Shown here: positions 3,320 through 42,110 of the stretch, one piece after another
Numbering within the stretch: position 1 is the stretch's first letter
Layout: every line of letters starts with the position of its first letter
From: Pirellulales bacterium
GTDB lineage: Bacteria; Planctomycetota; Planctomycetia; Pirellulales; Lacipirellulaceae
Assembly (NCBI GenBank): GCA_019636345.1
Contig: JAHBXQ010000003.1
Span: 620,001-684,000 of the forward strand
Direction of reading: 5' to 3'
Length of the DNA stretch: 64,000 nt
Notes under the pieces: model-generated
Seen by the model: only the letters and a program-made list of their open reading frames with translations
Told to the model about the DNA's origin: nothing
Databases searched by the model: none
Translations under genes and position numbers: made by a program

Positions 3320-5047
3320 TCAGAACTTCTTCCGCACCTCGATTCGCGCTCCGTTGACGTCGTTGGCGTTTTCCAGCCAGCCGTGCATTGCGTCGGCGCG
3401 GAGGATCACGGAGTTCGACAGCGGGCGCTGCCAGCGGACTCCCACGGCGTACTGGTCGCCGGGGGCGCGGCGGAAGGTCGGGTCGCCGTGGGCCTGGACG
3501 AACGCCCCTTCGAGGATGAGTTGCCGATCGAACGCCCGGCCCAGCAGGTCGACCCCGACGGCCCCGCCGAACGTGTTGTTGCCCGAGTCGTCGAGGATCG
3601 GGTACCCCGTGAGAAGGTCCGACTCGAAGTTGATGCCCGTGTTTTTCAGCGGGCCCTGCAACCGCCCCAGCGGCTGCGGCTGGCGGAAGCCGGCGAACAG
3701 GTTCACATAGGGGATGACGTTGTACGGGTTGGAGGTGAGAAAGCTGTTTTCCATGAGCACGAGGAACCCGTCCGCGGTCCGCTGGTCGCGCACGCCCCCT
3801 TGCCCCGTGTTGGCGATGAGCCGCAGCGAGTTGCTGACGAGGTTCAAATACCGCCGCGTGTAGCTGATCCCCACGTTATGGTAGGTGCGGCCCTGATCGC
3901 GGGGGTCGTCGACCAGCGCGTAGCCGAGCTCGATGTAGCCGCCGCGGCGTTCGATAAACGTGGTCGCTCCGACGAACGTCGCGTCGGCCGAATCGGCGCC
4001 GAAGGCCTGCGAGGTGAGCTGGTCGAACCCGACGAACAAGGTCGTGTCGAAATTGGCCCAGTCCCACACCGGGTTGTTGCGCGCGGGGATCGTGGCCGCG
4101 GCGCCGACGAACGCGTCCTCGAGCCAGATGCCGTTTTGCAGCACCAGCGGGATCAACCCGGCGGCGAACGGCAGATCGAACGGGGGCCCCGTGCCGTTGG
4201 CTCCGCCGAGGATCCACCCGAGGTCCCCCTCGATGAACATCGTGTCGGTCACGGGGTCCCAGACGTCGAAGAACTCCTGGACCTCGCTGTCGCCGTCGTC
4301 GAACACGATGCCGCTGAAGTTCTGCCCCTTGTCCAAGGGGCCCCAGAACATGTGGAACCGCTCGGTCGCGGTGAGCCAGAAATCGATGTCGAGATTGAGC
4401 CGGTTGGCCCACACGGTTTGGCCGTTGCCGACGTTTCGGTTGTAAGCCGCGGCGGTGCGGAAGTCGCCGTAGACGTAGAACTTGGGGTGCGTCGGGTTGG
4501 TGACGCCCAGGCAGGTCCCGGAGGGATCCCAGGGGCCCGTGTCGTACAGCGGGGTGAACAGCTCGACCCAGGGGCGCTGGTTGGGGTTGAGGCGCTTGTC
4601 GCCGTAGACGCCCAGCTCGCCGCAGGCGTCCCAGTAGAATTGCCCCAGGAGCGGATCAGGGGTGAAGTCGCCCCCTTGGTACTCGCGCTCACAGGCGCGG
4701 GGGTCGTGCCGATGGGGCTGCGGGACGATCAGCGGCGGGTGAGCGCCGGACGTGTTGGGGGCAGGGTTCGGCGCCGGGTGCATGTCCCACGCCGGGGCGT
4801 GCATCGAGACCTCGCCCGGGGCGTACGGGGCCAGCGGGCTGGAGCGCCCGAGCGACCGCTGGAACCCCGGCCCCGCGACGCCCGGATGCGGTCCATAGGG
4901 AGCGCACGGCTCGCCGAACGGCTGCGCCTCGGCCCGCACGGCGAGCGGCCCGACGAGCGCGGCCAGCGCCAATGCGACTGCCGGCGGCAATCGGCGGGCG
5001 ATCGCGCTTCGAGGCGTCGGCGGGCGTCGGCGGGAGCAGGTCGTCAT
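3320..5047 (-). CDS. Outer-membrane beta-barrel protein, downstream of a multiheme cytochrome
   Basis: 575 residues. The N-terminus has an Arg-rich stretch followed by a hydrophobic segment ending in AVRAEAQP, an export signal. The mature region starts Pro/Gly-rich, then shows many alternating polar/hydrophobic strands rich in Asn, Asp, Tyr and Trp. The last strand ends in Phe (ARIEVRKKF), the usual C-terminal signature of outer-membrane barrels. No specific porin family was recognised. Its start lies 52 bases downstream of the stop of the pentaheme cytochrome gene, on the same strand, so the pair is probably one transcript. This resembles porin/cytochrome pairs that move electrons across the outer membrane, but that function is an inference from context only. 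Confidence 0.72.
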   Translation of the reverse strand: MTTCSRRRPPTPRSAIARRLPPAVALALAALVGPLAVRAEAQPFGEPCAPYGPHPGVAGPGFQRSLGRSSPLAPYAPGEVSMHAPAWDMHPAPNPAPNTSGAHPPLIVPQPHRHDPRACEREYQGGDFTPDPLLGQFYWDACGELGVYGDKRLNPNQRPWVELFTPLYDTGPWDPSGTCLGVTNPTHPKFYVYGDFRTAAAYNRNVGNGQTVWANRLNLDIDFWLTATERFHMFWGPLDKGQNFSGIVFDDGDSEVQEFFDVWDPVTDTMFIEGDLGWILGGANGTGPPFDLPFAAGLIPLVLQNGIWLEDAFVGAAATIPARNNPVWDWANFDTTLFVGFDQLTSQAFGADSADATFVGATTFIERRGGYIELGYALVDDPRDQGRTYHNVGISYTRRYLNLVSNSLRLIANTGQGGVRDQRTADGFLVLMENSFLTSNPYNVIPYVNLFAGFRQPQPLGRLQGPLKNTGINFESDLLTGYPILDDSGNNTFGGAVGVDLLGRAFDRQLILEGAFVQAHGDPTFRRAPGDQYAVGVRWQRPLSNSVILRADAMHGWLENANDVNGARIEVRKKF

Positions 5048-5099
5048 GCGGGCTTGCGAAAGCGTTCTGGCGGGCGCGGGGGGCGGCTTGCTGTTGGAC

Positions 5100-7739
5100 T
5101 CACGGCACGAAGAATTCCATGCTCGACTCGTGGAAGTCGAGGATTCCTTCGGTCATCGCGCGTTGCATCTCGGGGGTCGCGTCGCAGAACCGCATGAAGT
5201 ACAGCGGTTCCAGTCGGCTGCGCATCCGGAAACTGAGCCGGTAATGGCCGGGCTCGCCCATCAGTTCGGCGGGGACCTTGTACGGCACGCGCCGCGACCC
5301 CAGCGGCGGCAGCGAGCGGGCTTCCATCCGAATGAACGGCGGATGGTTGATTACCGAAATCGGTTGCGCCCCCGGGCGGATGAACGGCAGTTGGTCGATG
5401 TCGACGTTCACCGGCAGGAAGAACTCGCGATCGGTCCCCTTGGCGCCGGTGATGAGGAACATTGTCTGCAGGTTGAACAACTGGGCGTCGAAGGCGAGCC
5501 GTTTGCGGCGGACGTCGACCGAGTGGATGTCGGCCAGGTCGCCCAGGCTGTCGAGGTAGCCGGTCTCCCACAGTCGATTGCCGCGCGGACCGATCAGCAC
5601 GACGTTGGCCCACAGTTGCGGCTGGGCGCCAAGCGACGCGGTCGGCAGGTTATGCCCCTCGTTGGTGTTGGCGACGATGAACTCGAACTCCAGCGGCTGC
5701 CCGCGCACAGGTTGGCGCTTGAAGAACGGCCCGTCGACGTGCGAGCCGTTCTCCATGACCGCCAGCCGTAGCTGATCCTTCTTGGCCCGCCGCTTGAGGT
5801 TGTCCTCGATGATCTCGCGGGCGTCGCAGCGGTCGTCCGATTCCTTCCACTCCGCGGGGAACACGACGTGGATGCGGCCGGCGTCGACCGCGTCCTCGAA
5901 CTCCTCGGTCCCCCAGCCGGCGCGCCAGTCGAACAGCAGCCATTCGCGCATCGTCCAGCGGTACGCCTTCGGGTTGAAGGGAAATATGCCGGGGTGCGCG
6001 ATCGAGTACCCGGGGCCGTAGAAGACGTGGTTCGAGTGCTTGCGGTTCTCGCCGACGTTTTTCTTGTTGACCACCGCGGCGGGGCCGACCTCGAACCCGC
6101 TCGGCACGCCCGGGATGCGTCCCATGTGGCAGTCCTGGCAGCGGATTCCCTTCTGGCACGCGGGACTGGCGCGGTATTGCTCCCACACCACCTCGAGCTT
6201 GATCCCCGGGAAGACCGCCACTTGGTGGCACGTGATGCAGAAGTCGCTCGTGGCGAGTTGCGGATTGTAAAAGCCGGCGGTGTGGATCGGCTGCCCCGGG
6301 CCCTTTTCGTCGGGCGAGGTTTTGAGTTTGAGATCGTCCTTGCGCGAGATCGCCTCCGCGACGCCGTGCCCGCCGATCGTGCCGTAGACCGGGTCGTAGA
6401 CGTCGCCGGGAACGATTCGCCGCTCGCCGTTCGTGCGGCCGTAGAATTCGTTGACGCGATGGCAGGCGACGCAGGTGACCCCCTCGCGGGCCACCTGGGG
6501 GAGTTCCCACAACGGCGCCGCGCGCGAGATCCCCAGTTCCGTCCCCGCCGGCGAGTGGCAGCGGTAGCAGAAGTAGCCGATCGTCCCCTGGGCGACGTCG
6601 TTGATCTTCTGCTCGAACTTGTGGAACATCGGCGAGACGAACGCGTAGGCGTGGCTCGACATGGCCCACTCGTCGTAGATCTGTTCATGGCACGCGCGGC
6701 ACTCGGTCGCCGCGGGGTAGCGACTTTGGGCGACGAACTCGCACCGCTCGAGCGGCGTTTGCGGCGCGGCCGGCTTCGAGCCGGCGTGCGGATTCGGGAC
6801 GTTGGCCGGCGGGTGCGCGAAGGCGGAACCGGTCGGGGGCCCCGGGGGCGTCGGCGCGACCGGAACGCCGCGATTCTCCGGCGGCGGTTGCGTGGGAGTC
6901 GGCGAGGCTTGCGGTTGCCGCTGTTCGGCGACCGGAGGCAACGGGACCGGAGGCGTCAGGAGATCGTCCTCGTCGGTCAGCAAGTCGTCGTCGCTGGATT
7001 CCGCGGCGCTCTTGGGCGGAGCCGGCGTCGACGGTTGTTGATTGGATGTTGCAGCCGCCGGCCGCTCGTTCGGCGTCGACAGGAGCAAGTCCTCGTCCGG
7101 CGTCAGGAGTTCGTCGGCGTCCTCGGAGAGCGCGGCTGGAGAATCGACCGGCGATTCAGGGCGGGGCGCCGGCGGGTCGTCGACCGGCGGCAAGGGGACC
7201 AGATCGTCGGCTCCGTCGAGCAGATCGTCTTCCTCGGCGAGCAAGTCCTCGCCCGCGGCGAGCAGTTCGTCGTCCTCGCCGGCAATCTCGGCCGAAGGCC
7301 GCGCGGCGAGGCGCAGCGGGACAGGGTGCTTCACCCGCGGGACGGCGTCGCTGCGGCGCTCCGACGCGAGGCGCACGGCGCCGGGCGGGACGAGATTTGC
7401 AGGAGGCGCCGCGTCGCCGTGCTCGGCGTCGTCGGTCGTCGGTTCGAGCCATTCGGGGTGATTCGCCACCGCGATCCACCCGGGGCAGCCTCCTTCGGCG
7501 AGGAGGGACTGCACCTTCGTCGACATCGTCGCGCGGTCGTCGACGACAGGCGTCGCGACGACGGAGCGCCGGGTCGACGAGGCATCAGCAGCGGTCCAAG
7601 CCTGCGCGTCGACGCTCGGCAGCGGCGAGGCGTCGGGGACAAGCAGATACGCCGCTGCTGCGCCGACCACGGCCAAGGCCGCGGCGCGCAACGCGATCTG
7701 ATCGGGGAGGAGTCGCGCTCGAGGCCGCACGGGGAGCAT
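5100..7739 (-). CDS. Membrane-anchored pentaheme cytochrome c with an acidic, Pro-rich linker
   Basis: 879 residues. An N-terminal hydrophobic segment (about 17-36) is probably an uncleaved anchor or signal. Residues about 150-300 form a low-complexity Pro-rich linker with repeated acidic motifs (EDDELL, EDLL, EEDDLL, DDDLL, EDDLL). Five CxxCH heme sites follow: CRACH (Cys347), CYRCH (391), CVACH (423), CITCH (501) and CQDCH (534). The layout, including GHNLPTAS further on, resembles cytochrome c554-like multiheme proteins. The C-terminal 300 residues look beta-rich. It would carry electrons in the periplasm or at the outer membrane. The gene precedes an outer-membrane barrel gene by 52 bases. 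The electron donor and acceptor cannot be told from the sequence. Confidence 0.85.
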   Translation of the reverse strand: MLPVRPRARLLPDQIALRAAALAVVGAAAAYLLVPDASPLPSVDAQAWTAADASSTRRSVVATPVVDDRATMSTKVQSLLAEGGCPGWIAVANHPEWLEPTTDDAEHGDAAPPANLVPPGAVRLASERRSDAVPRVKHPVPLRLAARPSAEIAGEDDELLAAGEDLLAEEDDLLDGADDLVPLPPVDDPPAPRPESPVDSPAALSEDADELLTPDEDLLLSTPNERPAAATSNQQPSTPAPPKSAAESSDDDLLTDEDDLLTPPVPLPPVAEQRQPQASPTPTQPPPENRGVPVAPTPPGPPTGSAFAHPPANVPNPHAGSKPAAPQTPLERCEFVAQSRYPAATECRACHEQIYDEWAMSSHAYAFVSPMFHKFEQKINDVAQGTIGYFCYRCHSPAGTELGISRAAPLWELPQVAREGVTCVACHRVNEFYGRTNGERRIVPGDVYDPVYGTIGGHGVAEAISRKDDLKLKTSPDEKGPGQPIHTAGFYNPQLATSDFCITCHQVAVFPGIKLEVVWEQYRASPACQKGIRCQDCHMGRIPGVPSGFEVGPAAVVNKKNVGENRKHSNHVFYGPGYSIAHPGIFPFNPKAYRWTMREWLLFDWRAGWGTEEFEDAVDAGRIHVVFPAEWKESDDRCDAREIIEDNLKRRAKKDQLRLAVMENGSHVDGPFFKRQPVRGQPLEFEFIVANTNEGHNLPTASLGAQPQLWANVVLIGPRGNRLWETGYLDSLGDLADIHSVDVRRKRLAFDAQLFNLQTMFLITGAKGTDREFFLPVNVDIDQLPFIRPGAQPISVINHPPFIRMEARSLPPLGSRRVPYKVPAELMGEPGHYRLSFRMRSRLEPLYFMRFCDATPEMQRAMTEGILDFHESSMEFFVP

Positions 7740-34737: not shown

Positions 34738-37182
34738 ATGACTACGGCGCTTCCGAGATCGAGCAACCGACACGTCTGTTCCGCCAAGTCGACCCGTCCG
34801 CTTCGAAGGTCCTCGCACGCGCGGCGCTCGAAGCTTGCAGCGCTTTGTCAGAGACTCGGGGGCAGCTTGCGGGCTGCTTTTGCGCCTGGGCGACTTTGCG
34901 CGAGCCTTCTTCTTGTCGGTTCCTCGATCGCCGGCGCCGGCGAGCCACGGTTGGATCGGCTGGAACCGCAGGGGGCGCAGCGGGGGACGACTGTCGCGGT
35001 CGAGTTGTTCGGCCCGCGACTCGGCAAGGCGCCGCAGGGGCTGCTCTGGTCGCGCGCGGGGATCGAGGCGACCAAGCTGGAAGTGGTCGACGACAACCGC
35101 GTCCGGGTCGAGTTGATCGTCGCCGCGGATTGCCCGCCGGGCATTCACCCGCTGCGGGTTCACACGGCCACGGGGTTGTCGAATCTGGTTCAATTTCACG
35201 TCGGCGCCTTGGCCGAGTTGAGCGAGGTCGAACCGAACGATGCTCCTGAAGCGGCGCAGGCGATTCCTCTCGACACGGTCGTCAGCGGACTTGTGCAGGG
35301 GGCCGACGTCGACCGCTTTGCGGTCGAGTTGGCCGAGGGGGAGCGATTGTCGATCGAGGTCGAAGGGCTACGGCTGGGACGCACGATGTTCGACCCGGCG
35401 ATCGCCGTTCTTGACCCCGCTGGACATGAGATCGCGGCCAGCGACGACGCGGGGCCAGCGTATCGCGACGCGTTCTGCTCGCTGCTCGCACCGCAGGCGG
35501 GCCGCTACCTCGTCTTGGTCCGCGACGCGGCGCTGCAAGGGGACGGCCGGTCGAGCTACCGGCTTCACGTGGGTCGCTTCCCGCGCCCGGCGGCCGTGAC
35601 GCCGCTTGGCGGGCGGCCGGGGGAGAAGCTCGCGGTCCGGTTTCTCGGCGACGCGGCAGGCGAATTGAACGCCGAGATCGAACTGCCGGCCGCCGAGACG
35701 GAGGCCTTTCCCGTGTTCGCCGGCGACGACCGCGGCACGAGCCCCACGCAGTTTCAGCTGCGGGTCGTCGACTTGCCGAACGTGCTGGAGGTCGAACCGA
35801 ACGGCGACCGCGAGCATGCGACCGAGGCGCCCCCCGCGGCGGCGCTCGAGGGGGCGATCGCCGCGGCAGGCGATCTCGATTGGTATCGCGTGCCGCTGCA
35901 GAAAGGGCGGCCTGTCGACGTCCGGATGCACGCCCGACGACTCGGCTCGCCCGTCGACGGCATCGTGCGGGTGTTCGACGCCGCGGGCAGACAACTGGCC
36001 GCCAACGACGACGACCGCGGCGAGCCGGACAGTTCCCTGCGGTTTGCTCCGCCCGAGGACGGCGATTACTTCGTTCGCGTCGAGGACCGCCTCAACCGCG
36101 GCGGGCCGACGTTCGTCTACCGGGTCGAGCTTTCCGCGCCGAGCCCCGCGGTCGATCTGCGGATCGAGGAGCAACAACGCTACGAATCGCAGCGGGTCGT
36201 CGTGCCGCGGGGCAATCGCGCGGCGATCATGGTCGCGGCAAGCCGTCGCGACGTCGGAGGACTGCTGACGATTGCGCCCGGCGAGCTCCCCGCGGGGATC
36301 TCGTCTCCCGCGATGCCGCTTGCCGCCGACGCCAACCTCGTTCCCCTGGTGTTCGAGGCGGCCGAAGATGCGCCGCTGGGGGCGCAGTTGTGGAGCCTCG
36401 TCGCTACGCACGCCGAGGAGGGCAAACAGACGGCGAGCTTCTTCAAACAGCAAACTTGGCTGGTCCGCGGGCGGAACAACTTTCCCATGTGGAACCACTG
36501 GGCCGAGCGACCGCCGATCGCGGTCGTCGAGCCGGCGCCGTTCAAGCTGCGGCTCGTCGAACCGCAGGCTCCGCTCGTGCAGAACGGGTCGAAGGAGCTG
36601 CGCGTCGTCGCCGAACGGGCCGCAGGGTTCACGGCGCCGATCCGGCTGCGGTCGCTCTACAACCCGCCGGGCATGGCGGCGAACAACTCGTTGACGATCC
36701 CTGCCGAGCAGACCGAAGGCACGGTCCCGATCACCGCGGCGGGGAACGCTCGGCTCGGCGAGTTCGACGTGGCGATCGTCGGCGAGGCCGACGTCGACGG
36801 GCTGGTCTCGGTCTCGACGCAACTGGCCAAGCTGCGGATCGCCCCGGGGTACGTGGGACTCGCGTTCGCCCCCGTGGCGACGATGCAGGGAGCGGACGCC
36901 GAGTACGTCGTGCAGGTCGAGCAACGGACCCCGTTCGCCGGGACCGCTCAGGCGGAACTCTTGGGGCTTCCCCCCGGGGTGACGGCGCCGAACGTGGAGA
37001 TCGACAGTCAAGCCGAGCGGATCGTCTTTCCGCTCACAGTGGCCGCGGACGCGCGCGTCGGTCGGCATCAGCAACTGGCGTGTCGCGTGACGATCGTCGA
37101 ACACGGCGAGCCGGTCGTCCACACCCTCGGCACGGGGGAACTGCGGGTTGATCCGGGCGCTCCTCCGGGAGACGCGTCATGA
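34738..37182 (+). CDS. Large exported protein with pre-peptidase C-terminal (PPC) domains
   Basis: 814 residues. A long basic N-region precedes a hydrophobic segment (LCASLLLVGSSIAGAGEP), so it is exported. An IPT/E-set-like start (LEPQGAQRGTTVAVELFG) leads into two PPC-type units, recognised by (S/L)EVEPNDAPEAAQ...VDRFAVELAEGERL...LDPAGHEIAASDD and LEVEPNGDREHATE...LDWYRVPLQKGRPVDVRMHARRLGS. The C-terminal third is a further beta-rich region. There are no catalytic motifs, so it is probably a structural or binding partner of the operon. ATG 34738 has AGGGGG at 34722-34727; ATG 34705 is an alternative. Its stop overlaps the next gene's start (ATGA). Confidence 0.85.
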   Translation: MTTALPRSSNRHVCSAKSTRPLRRSSHARRSKLAALCQRLGGSLRAAFAPGRLCASLLLVGSSIAGAGEPRLDRLEPQGAQRGTTVAVELFGPRLGKAPQGLLWSRAGIEATKLEVVDDNRVRVELIVAADCPPGIHPLRVHTATGLSNLVQFHVGALAELSEVEPNDAPEAAQAIPLDTVVSGLVQGADVDRFAVELAEGERLSIEVEGLRLGRTMFDPAIAVLDPAGHEIAASDDAGPAYRDAFCSLLAPQAGRYLVLVRDAALQGDGRSSYRLHVGRFPRPAAVTPLGGRPGEKLAVRFLGDAAGELNAEIELPAAETEAFPVFAGDDRGTSPTQFQLRVVDLPNVLEVEPNGDREHATEAPPAAALEGAIAAAGDLDWYRVPLQKGRPVDVRMHARRLGSPVDGIVRVFDAAGRQLAANDDDRGEPDSSLRFAPPEDGDYFVRVEDRLNRGGPTFVYRVELSAPSPAVDLRIEEQQRYESQRVVVPRGNRAAIMVAASRRDVGGLLTIAPGELPAGISSPAMPLAADANLVPLVFEAAEDAPLGAQLWSLVATHAEEGKQTASFFKQQTWLVRGRNNFPMWNHWAERPPIAVVEPAPFKLRLVEPQAPLVQNGSKELRVVAERAAGFTAPIRLRSLYNPPGMAANNSLTIPAEQTEGTVPITAAGNARLGEFDVAIVGEADVDGLVSVSTQLAKLRIAPGYVGLAFAPVATMQGADAEYVVQVEQRTPFAGTAQAELLGLPPGVTAPNVEIDSQAERIVFPLTVAADARVGRHQQLACRVTIVEHGEPVVHTLGTGELRVDPGAPPGDAS

Positions 37183-39782
37183 GGGCGATCACGGGTTTCG
37201 ATGCGACGAGCGGCAAGAGAACCACGACGGCACGACGGGCGCAACGAGCGCAACGAGGGGGGGAGTCCTTGGCGGTGAATTCAGCGATCCATGCGTTGGG
37301 GAATACTTGCAGCCGTCGGCGAATCGCGCTTTTCGTTGCTCGACGCGCGGCGGCAGGGCTGGTTCTGGGCCTGCTGGGCGGCGTGCCGCTCGACGCGCTT
37401 GCGGCCGAGTACGTCGAGCTGGCCCTCTACCCGCCGCAGGTCCGGCTCGAAACCGGCGACGACTCGCAGCGGGTTGTCGCGGTGGCGACTCGCGACGACG
37501 GCGTCACGGTCGACGTGACAGCCGAGGTCGTCTGGGATCGCGCCGGCGCGGGGCCCGAGTTGTTTGCGGTGGAGCAGGGGGTCGTCCGTCCCCGCGCCGC
37601 CGGCCAGGCGCGTTTGCGCGCCAGCCTGGGCGAGCTTGGCGCCGAGGCCGACGTCGTGGTCGCATCGCTCGACCCGCGCGACGGCGTCGCCTTCCGCCGT
37701 GACGTGATGCCGGTCTTCATGCGCGCCGGGTGCAACGCCGGCGGATGCCACGGGGCGGCCCTCGGCAAGGACGGGTTCATGCTGTCGCTGTTCGGCTACG
37801 ACCCGGCGGGCGATCACTTCCGCCTGACGCGGCAACTGGCGACGCGGCGGCTCGATCTGGCCGTTCCCGAGGAAAGTCTGCTGTTGACCAAGGCGACCGG
37901 CGGCGTTCCCCACACCGGCGGCAAACGGCTGGAGCCCGGGGACCCGCACTACGACGCGCTCCTGGCGTGGATCGCCGCGGGGGCGCCGGACGACGGGGCC
38001 GACGCCCCGCAGGTCGAGTCGCTGGCCGTCTATCCCCCGCAGTGCGTCTTGGCGGAGCCCGGGGCGACGCAGCAGTTCGTCGCCGTGGCGCGCTACGCCA
38101 ACGGCGAAGAGCGCGACGTGACCGACTTGGCCGTGTTCTTGTCGAACAACGACGCCGCGGCGGCCATCGACTCCGCCGGACTGGTCACGGCCCAGTCCCC
38201 CGGCGAGGCGTTCGTGACTGCTCGGTTCGACGTCCACACCGTGGGGAGCCAGGCGCTGGCGCTCGATCCCGCGGCCGCGTATCAGGCGCCGACCGAGCCG
38301 CCGGCCAACTTCATCGACGAGTTGGTCGAGGCGAAGCTCGCCCGGCTGCGGCTTTCTCCCAGCGGGCTTTGCACCGACGAGGAGTTTCTCCGCCGCGTGA
38401 CGATCGATCTGGCCGGCCGACTGCCGACAGTCGAAGAGCGGGCCGCGTTTCTCGCCGATGCGGCGGCCGAGAATCGCGCCGCGAGACGACTCGCCAAGAT
38501 CGACGAACTGTTGGCCTCGAAGGACTTCGTCGACGTGTGGGCGCTCAAGTGGGCCGAGATGCTGCTCGTGCGCAGCGAACCGAACCGAGTCGAGTACAAG
38601 CCCATGTTCTTGTACTGGCAGTGGATCAGAAATCACGTCGCCGCGGGGACGCCGGCCGACGTCATCGTCCGCGAACTGCTGTCCGCGAGCGGCAGTTCGT
38701 TCACCACGCCGCAGGTCAATTTCTTTCAGATCGAACCCGACCCGAAGAAGACGGCCGAGAACGTCGCCCAGTCGTTCCTGGGGATCCGCGTCCAGTGCGC
38801 CCAGTGCCACAACCATCCGTTCGATCGTTGGACGATGAACGACTACTACGGCTTTGCGGCGTTCTTCGCGCAGGTCGCCCGGAAGCGAACCGAGGATTAC
38901 CGCGAGATCGAGGTGTTCGACCGCGGCGGCGGCGAGGCTCCTCATCCGTTAACGGGGCAGCCGCTGCCGCCGAAGTTCCTGGGGGGCGAGCGTCCCGACG
39001 TGAAGGGGCAAGACCGTCGCGCGGTCGTCGCCGCGTGGATCGCCTCGCCGGACAATCCCTACTTTGCCGCGAATCTGGCCGATCGCGCGTGGGCCCATCT
39101 CATGGGGATCGGCATCGTGCAGGAGGTCGACGACGTGCGAGTCAGCAACCCGCCGAGCAACGCCGCATTGCTCGACGCGCTGGCCGCCCGGCTGGTCGAG
39201 CACCAGTTCGACGTTCGCAAGCTGCTGCGCGACGTCGCGGCCAGCAACGCCTACCAGCGGAGCTCGACGAGCACTGCGGCCAACGCGCACGACGGACGGA
39301 ATTTCGCTCACGCCGCGGTCCGACGGATCCCGGCCGAGGCGCTGCTCGACTGCTTGTGTCAGGCGACCGGGGCCCCGGAGAATCTCCCCGGGCTCCCCCC
39401 CGGGGCTCGAGCCTTGGAGGTCCCCGACGGGCAGGCGGGGGGGTACTTCCTGAAGACCTTCGGCAGGTCGCGCCGCACGACCGTCTGCGCGTGCGAGGCC
39501 CAGGCCGAGCCGACCTTGTCGCAGGCCCTTCACCTGCTTAACGGCGCCGCGGTCCATGCGAAAATCAACCAGGGCAAGCTCGTCGAAACCTGGCTCGACG
39601 CCGGCCAGACCCCGGCCCAGGTCGTCGAGTCGATCTACCTTCGCGCGCTCGGTCGGACGCCGACCGCCGAGGAGTCCGCCGCGCTCGTCGCCCTCTGCGG
39701 CGAGGAGCAGCGCCCGGTCGCCGAACTCAAGGACGCCTTCTGGGCTGTGCTCAACTCGCGCGAGTTTTTGTTTATGAGGTGA
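37179..39782 (+). CDS. DUF1549/DUF1553 cytochrome-like protein with Ig-like domains
   Basis: 867 residues. A signal segment near 55-72 (AAGLVLGLLGGVPLDALAAE) precedes a Big_2-type domain (VELALYPPQVRLETGDDSQR). A heme-like site CNAGGCH (Cys185, C-x4-CH rather than CxxCH) follows, then a second Ig-like domain. The DUF1549 region (FIDELVEAKLARL, EFLRRVTIDLAGRLP, WALKWAEMLLVRSEPN) contains a true CxxCH, CAQCHNHPFDRW at Cys540. DUF1553 ends the protein (WIASPDNPYFAANLADRAWAHLMG, YLRALGRTPTAEE, LNSREFLF). It is exported and probably redox-active, partnered with the DUF1501 protein. The function of this planctomycete family is not established. The start overlaps the PPC gene stop. Confidence 0.92.
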   Translation: MRAITGFDATSGKRTTTARRAQRAQRGGESLAVNSAIHALGNTCSRRRIALFVARRAAAGLVLGLLGGVPLDALAAEYVELALYPPQVRLETGDDSQRVVAVATRDDGVTVDVTAEVVWDRAGAGPELFAVEQGVVRPRAAGQARLRASLGELGAEADVVVASLDPRDGVAFRRDVMPVFMRAGCNAGGCHGAALGKDGFMLSLFGYDPAGDHFRLTRQLATRRLDLAVPEESLLLTKATGGVPHTGGKRLEPGDPHYDALLAWIAAGAPDDGADAPQVESLAVYPPQCVLAEPGATQQFVAVARYANGEERDVTDLAVFLSNNDAAAAIDSAGLVTAQSPGEAFVTARFDVHTVGSQALALDPAAAYQAPTEPPANFIDELVEAKLARLRLSPSGLCTDEEFLRRVTIDLAGRLPTVEERAAFLADAAAENRAARRLAKIDELLASKDFVDVWALKWAEMLLVRSEPNRVEYKPMFLYWQWIRNHVAAGTPADVIVRELLSASGSSFTTPQVNFFQIEPDPKKTAENVAQSFLGIRVQCAQCHNHPFDRWTMNDYYGFAAFFAQVARKRTEDYREIEVFDRGGGEAPHPLTGQPLPPKFLGGERPDVKGQDRRAVVAAWIASPDNPYFAANLADRAWAHLMGIGIVQEVDDVRVSNPPSNAALLDALAARLVEHQFDVRKLLRDVAASNAYQRSSTSTAANAHDGRNFAHAAVRRIPAEALLDCLCQATGAPENLPGLPPGARALEVPDGQAGGYFLKTFGRSRRTTVCACEAQAEPTLSQALHLLNGAAVHAKINQGKLVETWLDAGQTPAQVVESIYLRALGRTPTAEESAALVALCGEEQRPVAELKDAFWAVLNSREFLFMR

Positions 39783-39845
39783 GGGAGCAGAGGTCAAACG
39801 GTTCGCGACAAGTCAGCTCAACAATCCAACATCTCGACATCCGCC

Positions 39846-42110
39846 ATGCGCTTCGCCGAATCCTCGCCTCCGTCGCCCTCGCTGCTGCGCACTGCGCTCT
39901 GCGTCCTCTGCGCGCTCTGCGGCGATCTCGTTCTGGCGCGGCCAGCGTCGGCCGACGAGCCGACGAACGTCACGTACGCCGAGCATGTGCGGCCGATCTT
40001 TCAGGAGCACTGTTTCGCCTGCCACTCGCAGGACGACAAGTCGAGCGACTTGGCTCTCGACGACTACGCCTCGGCCGTGGCGGGCGGGGCGAGCGGCGAG
40101 GTCCTCGTCGCGGGCGATCCGGACGGGTCGCGGCTGTGGGCGCTAGTGACCCACGCCGACTCGCCGGCGATGCCCCCCGACAGCGACAAACTCCCCGACG
40201 CTCAGCTTGCGCTCGTCAAAGCATGGATCGAAGGGGGGCTGCCGGAAAACGCCTCCTCGAAGCCCAAGCCGAAGCCGACCCTCGCCGCGGCCGTGGCGCC
40301 GACGGCGGACAATCGCCCCGTGGGCGAGCCGGCGATGCCCCGCGACGTGCTGTGCGAGCCGGTCGTGGCGCCCGCCCGCCCCGGCGCCGTCGACGCCCTG
40401 GCGGCCAGCCCCTGGGCGCCGTTGGTCGCCGTCGGCGCCCCGCGGCAGGTCGTGCTCTCTCATGCCGACTCCGCGGAAGTGTTGGGCATTTTGCCCTATC
40501 CCGAGGGAACCCCCCGCGTCGTCCGCTTCAGCCGCGACAGCAGCCGGCTGCTGGTCGCCGGGGGGCGGGCCGGCGCCTTCGGCAACGCCGTGCTGTTCGA
40601 CGTCGCCACGGGCGCCCGGTTGGCCGCCGTCGGCGAGGAGGTCGACTCGGTCCTCGCGGCTGATCTCTCCCCCGACCAGTCGCTGGTCGTCGTCGGCGGT
40701 CCGAAGAAGGTGGTGCGCGCTTATCGCGTCGCCGACAACACGACGGCGTACGAGCTGCGCAAACATACCGACTGGATCACCGCCGCCGAGTTCAGCCCCG
40801 ACGGCACGCTGCTGGCCACGGCGGATCGCGCCGGGGGCGTGTTGCTGTGGGACGCCGCGGCCGGGCACGAGACGGCGGTCCTCGCCGGCCATACGCAGCA
40901 CGTCACTGCCGTCGCCTGGCGCAGCGATTCGCAAATGCTCGCCACCGCCGGCGAGGACGGCACGCTTCGGCTGTGGGATCGCACAGGCAAGCAGCTCAAG
41001 TCGGCCGGCGCCCACGGAGGCGTTCTGGCGATCGACTTCCATCGCGACGGCCGGCTCCTCTCGGCAGGCCGCGACCGCGTCGTGAAGCTCTGGGACGGCG
41101 AGCTCAAGCATCTGGCGGACCTGACGACGATGGACGACGCGGCCTTGGCCGTACGGTTTACGCACGACGGCGTCGCCGCGATTGTCGGCGATTGGTCGGG
41201 CGCGGTGCGGGTCGTCGGCGTGGAGTCGCGGGAGACGCTTCGCACGCTGGCCCCCAATCCGCCGCCGCTGGCGCGCCGGCTGGAGCTTGCTCAGCAGGAA
41301 TGCGACGCCCGGCGCGCCGCGTGCGAGCAAGCGACGGCCGCGTTGGCCGAGGCGCGATCGGCGTTGGCGTCGGCCGACGCGGCCCTCGCCCGGCAGGACG
41401 AGGAGCGGCAGAAGTTCGTCGCCGCCGCGACCGCGGCCAGCCAGAATCGCGCCGCTGCCGCGAAGCGCCTCGCCGAGTTCACAAGCGCTTGGCAGCGCGT
41501 CGCCGACGGGGCCGCGGTCGCCGCGCAGAATCTGGCCAAGGCCGAGCAGGCGCTGGCGGAATCGCGTCGCGCGTCGGCCGCCGGCGACAACGGCGAGCCG
41601 TCAGAGGGCGACGACGCCGAGTCGCTTCGCGCCGCGGCAACTCGCGCCGAGCAGGCGGTCGTCGCGGCGCGGTCTGCGCAGCGCAAGGCGGAAGAGCAAG
41701 TGACCGCCGCCGACGCCGCGCGGACAGCGGCTGAGCGACAAGCCGCCGCCGCGGTCGCGGCGCATCGCGCCGCCGAGGCTGACGCGGCCGGTCGCCGCGA
41801 CGCGGCCCCCGCGGCCGATCTCGCCGCGGCGCGACAAACGGTCGGCGAGCGCGAGTCGGCGCTCGCCGCAGCCGCGTCTGCGCAAGCCGCCGCCGAGGAA
41901 CGGCGCGCGCGGATCGCCGCCCAGTGCGACGCTTACCTCAGGGCAGGCGAGCAATTGACCGCCGCCGCCTCGACCGCCGCCCTCGTGCGGGACGAAGCCC
42001 GGGCGAAATACGAAGCCTCCGAGCGCGAGGCCGAACTGGCGGCGGCCCGAGCGGCCGAGTTCGAAGCGGCCGAACAGGCCCGTGCCAAGGCCCGGGCCAA
42101 GGGACGCTGA
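39846..42110 (+). CDS. PSCyt1 cytochrome c / WD40 protein with a C-terminal coiled coil
   Basis: 754 residues. A signal peptide (ending ASADE) is followed by a planctomycete cytochrome c domain with one heme site, CFACH (Cys56, His60), and MPPDSDKLPDAQ. After a Pro-rich link, about seven WD40-type repeats fill residues 185-460 (AAEFSPDGTLLATADRAGGVLLWD, AVAWRSDSQMLATAGEDGTLRLWD and others). From about 475 to the end the sequence is almost entirely Ala, Glu, Arg, Gln and Lys in heptad-like runs, a long coiled coil. It is the last gene of the DUF1501 operon, 63 bases after the DUF1549 gene. It may scaffold the other products; the role is unproven. Confidence 0.92.
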   Translation: MRFAESSPPSPSLLRTALCVLCALCGDLVLARPASADEPTNVTYAEHVRPIFQEHCFACHSQDDKSSDLALDDYASAVAGGASGEVLVAGDPDGSRLWALVTHADSPAMPPDSDKLPDAQLALVKAWIEGGLPENASSKPKPKPTLAAAVAPTADNRPVGEPAMPRDVLCEPVVAPARPGAVDALAASPWAPLVAVGAPRQVVLSHADSAEVLGILPYPEGTPRVVRFSRDSSRLLVAGGRAGAFGNAVLFDVATGARLAAVGEEVDSVLAADLSPDQSLVVVGGPKKVVRAYRVADNTTAYELRKHTDWITAAEFSPDGTLLATADRAGGVLLWDAAAGHETAVLAGHTQHVTAVAWRSDSQMLATAGEDGTLRLWDRTGKQLKSAGAHGGVLAIDFHRDGRLLSAGRDRVVKLWDGELKHLADLTTMDDAALAVRFTHDGVAAIVGDWSGAVRVVGVESRETLRTLAPNPPPLARRLELAQQECDARRAACEQATAALAEARSALASADAALARQDEERQKFVAAATAASQNRAAAAKRLAEFTSAWQRVADGAAVAAQNLAKAEQALAESRRASAAGDNGEPSEGDDAESLRAAATRAEQAVVAARSAQRKAEEQVTAADAARTAAERQAAAAVAAHRAAEADAAGRRDAAPAADLAAARQTVGERESALAAAASAQAAAEERRARIAAQCDAYLRAGEQLTAAASTAALVRDEARAKYEASEREAELAAARAAEFEAAEQARAKARAKGR

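Follow-up and report, generated by a model that had tools for sequence, protein, structure and literature searches.

The 64,000-nucleotide stretch analyzed here (the window) belongs to a Pirellulales bacterium of the family Lacipirellulaceae (assembly GCA_019636345.1, contig JAHBXQ010000003.1, positions 620,001 to 684,000 of the forward strand) and carries, on its minus strand, a gene for a pentaheme c-type cytochrome (7739-5100) followed by a gene for an outer-membrane barrel protein (5047-3320). A preliminary description, made from the letters alone, had pointed to five CxxCH sites and to a barrel ending in Phe encoded 52 bases downstream. Both observations were borne out; the motifs lie on the minus strand from 6687-6701 to 6126-6140, and the second frame ends in RKKF and is predicted to form a barrel. 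The CxxCH codon pattern occurs seven times in the whole window against 1.98 expected, with seven reached in 0 of 100 shuffles, and five of these seven matches fall in the single frame of the 879-residue cytochrome. The other two, at 38796 and 40011, were rejected as parts of the system, as their frames (37179-42110) look like ordinary planctomycete proteins, which we take to be PSCyt1/DUF1549-like and WD40-like. A plasmid search gave no match. The features of the two genes, with the evidence for each in parentheses, are:

5100-7739, minus strand: pentaheme c-type cytochrome, 879 amino acids (frame; PF13435; 5ze8 by sequence and fold)
7641-7697, minus strand: hydrophobic segment, cytochrome residues 15-33, signal anchor or signal peptide, N-in (hydropathy, sequence)
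6759-7640, minus strand: Pro/Ala/acidic linker with [DE]DLL repeats, low conservation (sequence; repeat enrichment in relatives)
6687-6701, minus strand: heme motif 1, CRACH (this and the next four: CxxCH codon pattern, frame translation)
6555-6569, minus strand: heme motif 2, CYRCH
6459-6473, minus strand: heme motif 3, CVACH
6225-6239, minus strand: heme motif 4, CITCH
6126-6140, minus strand: heme motif 5, CQDCH
5103-5765, minus strand: C-terminal beta domain, core residues 332-552, with an invariant GH(N)LP motif (DSSP and predicted local distance difference test (pLDDT) of the model; immunoglobulin-like matches; conservation)
5048-5099, no strand: 52-base gap between the two genes (frame coordinates)
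3320-5047, minus strand: outer-membrane barrel protein, 575 amino acids, C-terminal Phe (RKKF) (frame; predicted structure; fold matches)
4925-5047, minus strand: putative signal peptide of the barrel protein, residues 1-41 (by eye; N-termini of relatives)
4610-4924, minus strand: disordered Pro-rich N-terminal segment, barrel model residues 1-105 (pLDDT < 50)
3323-4489, minus strand: barrel domain, model residues 146-534, about 18 strands (predicted structure)

Comparison of gene neighborhoods and of sequence divergence across relatives shows that the pentaheme cytochrome and the barrel are co-inherited as a stable unit. In the family of the source genome (43 genomes), 28 genomes have a strong cytochrome match (E below 1e-250) and the same 28 have the barrel; all 28 cytochromes contain five motifs, and 27 of the barrels end in Phe, with one running off its contig. 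One further genome of this sample (G022) gave a barrel match only, to a barrel starting near the end of a short contig, and another (G016) carries a second, divergent pair (38% and 29% identity) whose genes are likewise adjacent. The searches of the order and of the phylum each covered a sample of genomes. In the order sample (246 genomes), the cytochrome was found at 71 loci (E ≤ 1e-30) and the barrel at 73, which places the pair in 69 (by cytochrome) to 71 (by barrel) genomes, and all 71 cytochromes are followed directly by the barrel on the same strand; the barrel-only matches were that in G022 and a 114-base fragment in G141. This adjacency rejects a chance neighborhood and confirms the conservation in Pirellulales that had been proposed as a check on the pair. 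The barrel was found at E ≤ 1e-15 in 60 of the 392 genomes of the phylum sample; in 19 of the 20 loci fetched (from 65 match rows) the cytochrome lies directly upstream, and the remaining locus starts at base 2 of its contig.

Among named records, 552 relatives of the cytochrome core were found, and the best 80 were examined for the barrel. It lies directly downstream in 75, and the contigs of the other five end 1-667 bases after the cytochrome. The genes are therefore not unlinked in the order, phylum or named-record loci, which the preliminary description had named as a possible ground for refutation. Because the samples overlap, the counts from family, order, phylum and named records should not be added together. 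The best 80 named loci include isolates of Lacipirellula, Adhaeretor, Bythopirellula, Botrimarina and Hyphomicrobium and a Kordiimonadales strain, as well as bins that carry labels such as Opitutae, Phycisphaerales or Burkholderiales, which may be wrong; cultured strains with the pair include Lacipirellula limnantheis, Hyphomicrobium facile and Kordiimonadales bacterium IMCC3096. A planctomycete-only system, as first supposed, is thus rejected, the same pair being present in the Hyphomicrobium and Kordiimonadales isolates and in Opitutae-labelled and other bins. The distance matrices of barrel and cytochrome are congruent over 74 pairs, with a correlation of r 0.875 against a maximum of 0.076 in 999 permutations (L145 and the five loci without a barrel were dropped). 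Tandem cytochrome-barrel pairs were seen in L204, and two cytochromes precede one barrel in L219 and L220. Close copies are also present in bins labelled Myxococcota, Proteobacteria, Burkholderiales or Bordetella (L151, L161, L164, L166), and some of these labels may be wrong.

Residues 15-33 of the cytochrome are hydrophobic (Kyte-Doolittle mean 2.0) and follow an Arg-rich N-terminus. The N-terminal anchor of the preliminary description is present as a hydrophobic segment, which may be an anchor or a cleavable signal peptide; the N-termini of several proteobacterial homologues resemble ordinary signal peptides by eye. As the segment follows an Arg-rich start, the hemes should face the periplasm whether it is cleaved or uncleaved. 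The [DE]DLL repeats of the subsequent linker are present in 23 of 79 N-termini (45 repeats in all), compared with a mean of 0.5 and a maximum of 4 in 200 shuffles, a comparison made on related and hence not independent sequences. The loci bearing them range from Opitutae-labelled ones to Bythopirellula, and the repeats possibly serve as a docking motif. The idea that the linker is a fixed tether spanning the periplasm did not hold, since N-terminal length ranges from 42 to 547 residues (upper bounds) in relatives; it is short in some proteobacteria, with 49 residues including the signal in L172.

The cytochrome matches the Cytochrome_C554 family (PF13435) at 35.6 bits against a cut-off of 20.8. 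Its best solved relative by sequence is 5ze8 (E 2.7e-10), to which its profile aligns at E 5.1e-18 with all five motifs and the GHNLPT/PHAMPTG segment of the C-terminal domain in register; weaker profile matches are to cytochrome c554 and the MccA protein. A model of the core (mean pLDDT 81.5, 41 sequences; poor at core residues 436-476) superimposes on 5ze8 with Z 19.5 over 346 residues, a root-mean-square deviation of 3.8 and 19% identity, while the rows below it are far weaker and match only the immunoglobulin-like C-terminal domain. Foldseek alone returned nothing for the core model at E ≤ 0.001, and realigned candidates rank 5ze8 first. The ExtKL model (NF040886, NCBIfam) is matched at E 9.9e-07 and 27.7 bits, far short of its curated cut-off of 250. 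ExtKL, Gsu2801 and the pentahemes of cable bacteria are placed in one family in PMC11976967, whose account describes the small members as structurally homologous to the Thermochromatium tepidum protein (5ze8); this structural tie and the ExtKL match together make the window cytochrome probably a distant relative of the Geobacter protein. The preliminary view that the pair is not obviously homologous to the Geobacter or Shewanella systems consequently stands for the barrel, which has no curated family, and probably gives way for the cytochrome.

Five His residues outside the motifs (core positions 36, 159, 244, 369 and 472) are invariant in 80 of 80 sequences, made up of 79 named loci and the window sequence (L145, with four motifs, was dropped), and a sixth (core position 255) is present in 79. 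The five invariant residues together with the five motif His are enough to ligate all five hemes; this distal assignment is tentative because type B sequences, described below, lack some of them. The GH(N)LP motif of the C-terminal domain is a candidate heme ligand. The cytochrome conservation line was drawn leaving out L089-L092. Set A1 contains 29 of 31 cytochrome sequences, with L091 and L092 omitted as distant and with no barrel found (the L091 contig stops 77 bases past the cytochrome frame); A3 and A4 use a subset of the family rows for balance, A4 without L088, which its contig truncates, and without L101, whose frame is broken.

The barrel protein matched no Pfam or NCBIfam family at E ≤ 1, and 0 of 45 relatives had a Pfam match at E ≤ 0.01. 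Its profile gave one weak match among solved structures, a tape-measure protein at E 0.062, which was taken as chance. The predicted structure (mean pLDDT 79.6, from 45 sequences) has about 18 long strands, a count that carries model uncertainty because the structure is predicted. Its fold matches those of OccK7, OpdQ, MOMP and AlgE, with 312-347 residues aligned, Z 23-27 and 7-12% identity (OccK7, Z 27.2 and 320 residues; MOMP, Z 26.3 and 338 residues), and the best Foldseek row has E 8e-11. The reference barrels of OprD/OccK, MOMP and AlgE have 18 strands. MtrB of Shewanella is absent among the best 50 fold rows listed, which was not used as proof. The last 480 residues contain CxxCH in 0 of 74 barrels. 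By eye, the mature protein of the relatives recurrently begins with an LFAPP-like stretch, and a P-G-F/Y-M-R region ahead of the barrel domain is conserved.

Five partner genes lie in the same genome about 2.6-10.4 kb left of the first base of the window (620,001), at G000:C3:609,617-617,388 (L193 7618-15389), on the plus strand and pointing at the pair. They encode an NAD(P)H/2Fe-2S reductase, a tetraheme c554-like cytochrome, a cyclic nucleotide-binding (cNMP)/4Fe-4S protein, a membrane protein and a decaheme cytochrome, and the neighbors of the pair in other phyla form the same repeated set of five gene kinds. Two genes of the window stand between the halves:

259-900: gene between the pair and the partner genes
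913-2727: gene between the pair and the partner genes, subtilase (family match)

The reductase has FAD, NAD and 2Fe-2S domains, and those of L172 and L183 have the reductase part of flavohemoprotein as their best NCBIfam match, below its cut-off. The tetraheme protein weakly resembles the Nitrosomonas c554 model (48.2 bits against a cut-off of 400). Heme motifs number four in the c554-like protein, five in the window cytochrome and ten in the decaheme protein, and we infer that all three are periplasmic. The cNMP/4Fe-4S protein matches PF13247 (42.3 bits against 26.2), its gene lying upstream of the membrane-protein gene in L193 order. The membrane protein has both WX3HX13H motifs and SGAVG; across its set, all 22 sequences have two WX3HX13H motifs and 19 have SGXXG. 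A simple hydropathy scan finds two transmembrane helices in it, versus five for PCC4. In the decaheme protein (L193 13443-15389) and its homologues, a conserved-looking Cys-rich segment precedes the membrane segment and is perhaps a cytoplasmic metal site.

This gene content agrees with that of PCC4, a putative porin-cytochrome cluster whose subgroup II includes Planctomycetes (PMC5566968, 2017). As set out there, PCC4 comprises a porin, cytochromes with 4, 5 and 10 hemes and a membrane protein of about 300 amino acids with two WX3HX13H motifs and SGXXG, joined in subgroup II by a pfam13247 Fe-S gene, and the cluster was proposed as a conduit, a hypothesis accompanied by genomes of iron oxidizers. 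On this agreement, of content and not of compared sequences, the identification of a PCC4-type set is almost certain.

Of the inner set, the cNMP/4Fe-4S gene was the one searched across the order sample. Pairs of the first type (type A) and this gene occur together in 45 of the 246 genomes, with the pair only in three, the gene only in two and neither in 196 (Fisher p 4e-43, uncorrected for shared ancestry). In this comparison the gene was called at about E 1e-170; with 1e-60 as the limit the number of matching genomes is 65, and the weaker matches lie in longer frames. In the 27 genomes of family f1 the pair and the cNMP gene are within 20 kb in 18, 21-194 kb apart in three and on different contigs in six. 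The Hyphomicrobium-type loci (L181, L185, L187-L192) had no cNMP/4Fe-4S match in the stretch examined, as published for subgroup I.

A second type of pair, called by its lower score (type B), was found in 22 of the 246 order genomes. All nine loci studied (L104-L112) have six heme motifs; in both proteins that were scanned, the extra motif lies in an N-terminal PSCyt1-like domain, at 21.5 and 21.9 bits against 22. A strong cNMP match was present in 0 of the 22 genomes, with a weaker one in G063, and no neighbor family was common to more than three of the nine loci. The type B barrel ends in ILF in five of the nine.

Taken together, these results suggest a working model for the locus, in which the membrane protein, likely a b-type cytochrome as proposed in PMC5566968, would exchange electrons between NAD(P)H or quinol on one side and the periplasm on the other. 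The decaheme and tetraheme cytochromes would relay electrons to or from the pentaheme protein, which would sit at the periplasmic mouth of an OprD-like channel of about 18 strands. Most likely, what moves through the channel would be a small redox substrate (a metal ion, a chelate or an oxyanion), delivered to the pentaheme protein or released from it. For a PCC4-type outer-membrane end with the pentaheme cytochrome at the mouth of a substrate channel, taken as a whole, we rate the chances as even. Within it, the predicted structures lead us to prefer docking of the pentaheme cytochrome at a substrate channel to the threading of a heme wire through the barrel. The OccK/OprD-like barrel model, the compact 5ze8-like core, the CxxCH-free barrels and the precedent of ExtI and ExtKL argue for the channel. 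A broader and more tentative proposal is that PCC4 may be no porin-cytochrome conduit but another sort of outer-membrane redox device, a selective 18-stranded channel with a permanent pentaheme partner that exchanges electrons with passing cargo. The pair would then be a portable unit with two electron supplies: in type A the inner-membrane set of PCC4, and in the hexaheme type B, which would lack that set, a cytochrome c domain of planctomycete type fused to the protein.

Several observations weigh against the substrate-channel mechanism. One family of the order, f15, has the pair separated from the cNMP gene: in six of 17 genomes they share a contig at distances of 109 kb-3.9 Mb, and in the other 11 they are on different contigs. 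Since type B pairs occur without a strong cNMP match, the pair can work with other partners. Distant relatives of the cytochrome need not be paired; for L092 (G021:C19), with 26% identity and five motifs, BLAST found no barrel in 7.8 kb downstream. All hemes may be six-coordinate, which would suit electron transfer better than substrate catalysis. The barrel was predicted as a monomer, with no partner, heme or lipid, and residues 1-105 of the model are unresolved; moreover, one heme-bearing segment or tail of the cytochrome could insert into a predicted barrel of about 18 strands.

The strongest alternative, which we nevertheless consider unlikely, is a true conduit across the outer membrane, with the pentaheme cytochrome at least partly within the barrel and exchanging electrons with Fe(II), Fe(III) or minerals outside the cell. 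It draws on the close pairing and congruent divergence of the two proteins, on the five invariant candidate distal His, on the full electron chain in the same genome and on the hypothesis of PMC5566968 with its iron-oxidizer genomes. The geometry argues otherwise. MtrB has 26 strands, and MtrA inside it measures about 80 x 30 x 35 Å (PMC7198977), with MtrA homologues having about 33 residues per heme (PMC5566968); the pentaheme core, compact rather than wire-like, has 552 residues for five hemes, or about 110 per heme. With about 18 predicted strands against 26 and about 110 residues per heme against about 33, threading of the whole core through the barrel is unlikely. In addition, no further extracellular-looking multiheme gene was seen among the frames that were read next to the pair. 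The electron conduit of the preliminary description therefore survives in part: the two genes do form a conserved pair that probably has a redox role at the outer membrane, an MtrAB-type conduit is doubtful, and its own caveat that the barrel might be too narrow gains some ground from the predicted strand number.

Still less probable, in our assessment, is a terminal reductase (or oxidase) served by a dedicated uptake porin, in which the pentaheme protein would be the enzyme for a small oxyanion or nitrogen oxide admitted by the channel. The protein of 5ze8, the solved structure that matches across the whole core, has nitrite or hydroxylamine reductase activity. Weaker profile matches to cytochrome c554 and the MccA protein, the weak likeness of the tetraheme partner to the Nitrosomonas c554 model and the selenite precedent of ExtI and ExtKL (PMC5877670) point the same way. 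However, the five extra invariant His leave no obvious open heme in type A, no catalytic residue was identified, and a decaheme-tetraheme-pentaheme chain exceeds the needs of a simple reductase. Finally, the pair could be linked for other reasons, as an ordinary nutrient porin or assembly partner beside a housekeeping electron carrier with no joint function. The separation from the cNMP gene in one family, the lack of a neighbor family in more than three of nine type B loci and the barrel-less L092 speak for this reading, but the two genes stay adjacent in different phyla and also in a second, divergent pair, and this, with joint presence in the 246-genome sample and congruent divergence, makes it highly improbable.

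Returning to the substrate-channel mechanism, its consequences extend to genome surveys. PCC4 entered the literature as a possible route for extracellular electron transfer. Should the barrel prove to be a narrow channel, a PCC4 cluster alone should not be taken in such surveys as evidence of that process. As the pair is present in sampled order genomes and in cultured strains, it can be tested in isolates. In the open-access literature, as far as its accessible text goes, PCC4 together with porin-cytochrome appears only in the naming paper and in a metagenome survey citing it, and no experimental study of PCC4 was found there. Searches joining multiheme cytochrome, Pirellul* and porin, or multiheme cytochrome, cyclic nucleotide-binding, porin and extracellular electron transfer, found no literature.

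Judged by its gene content, the window pair is a new example of the published putative PCC4 kind. It shares with PCC4 (PMC5566968) the porin with its pentaheme cytochrome, the tetraheme and decaheme cytochromes, the membrane protein of about 300 amino acids, the pfam13247 gene and a further redox gene upstream of the tetraheme gene. It differs from PCC4, as described in the sections of that paper on the cluster, in the two window genes (259-900 and 913-2727) between the halves, in the long [DE]DLL linker of the pentaheme protein and in the separation of pair and cNMP/4Fe-4S gene in f15. The pair as a stable unit, type B, the [DE]DLL repeats and the tandem pairs and double cytochromes are details beyond the account in those sections. 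MtrAB of Shewanella likewise combines an outer-membrane barrel with a periplasmic multiheme cytochrome, but with 10 hemes and 26 strands (PMC7198977) where the window pair has five hemes and about 18 predicted strands; the partner of the barrel here has five CxxCH motifs and the decaheme gene lies elsewhere, unlike the decaheme partner of MtrAB/PioAB-type systems. The Verrucomicrobia clusters (PMC5615132) are also putative porin-cytochrome clusters, described there with an eight-heme periplasmic cytochrome and porins of at least 20 predicted transmembrane motifs, unlike those here. The OprD/OccK, MOMP and AlgE channels have a fold like that of the barrel model, a shared fold that in itself shows no function. 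The Thermochromatium tepidum pentaheme c552 (5ze8) has the five motifs in the same order and the same C-terminal domain (PHAMPTG for GHNLPT) and lacks the 300-residue linker of the window cytochrome. In the Geobacter extHIJKLMNOPQS cluster, a pentaheme cytochrome, a porin, larger multiheme cytochromes and a membrane cytochrome b likewise occur together, alongside a Rieske protein, a rhodanese-like protein and a 12-heme cytochrome that distinguish it from the set described here; loss of the porin ExtI impairs reduction of selenite and tellurite and not of Fe(III) citrate (PMC5877670). The match to the ExtKL model is weak (27.7 against 250 bits); ExtI and ExtKL, as portrayed in that account, are the nearest tested analogue of the pair.

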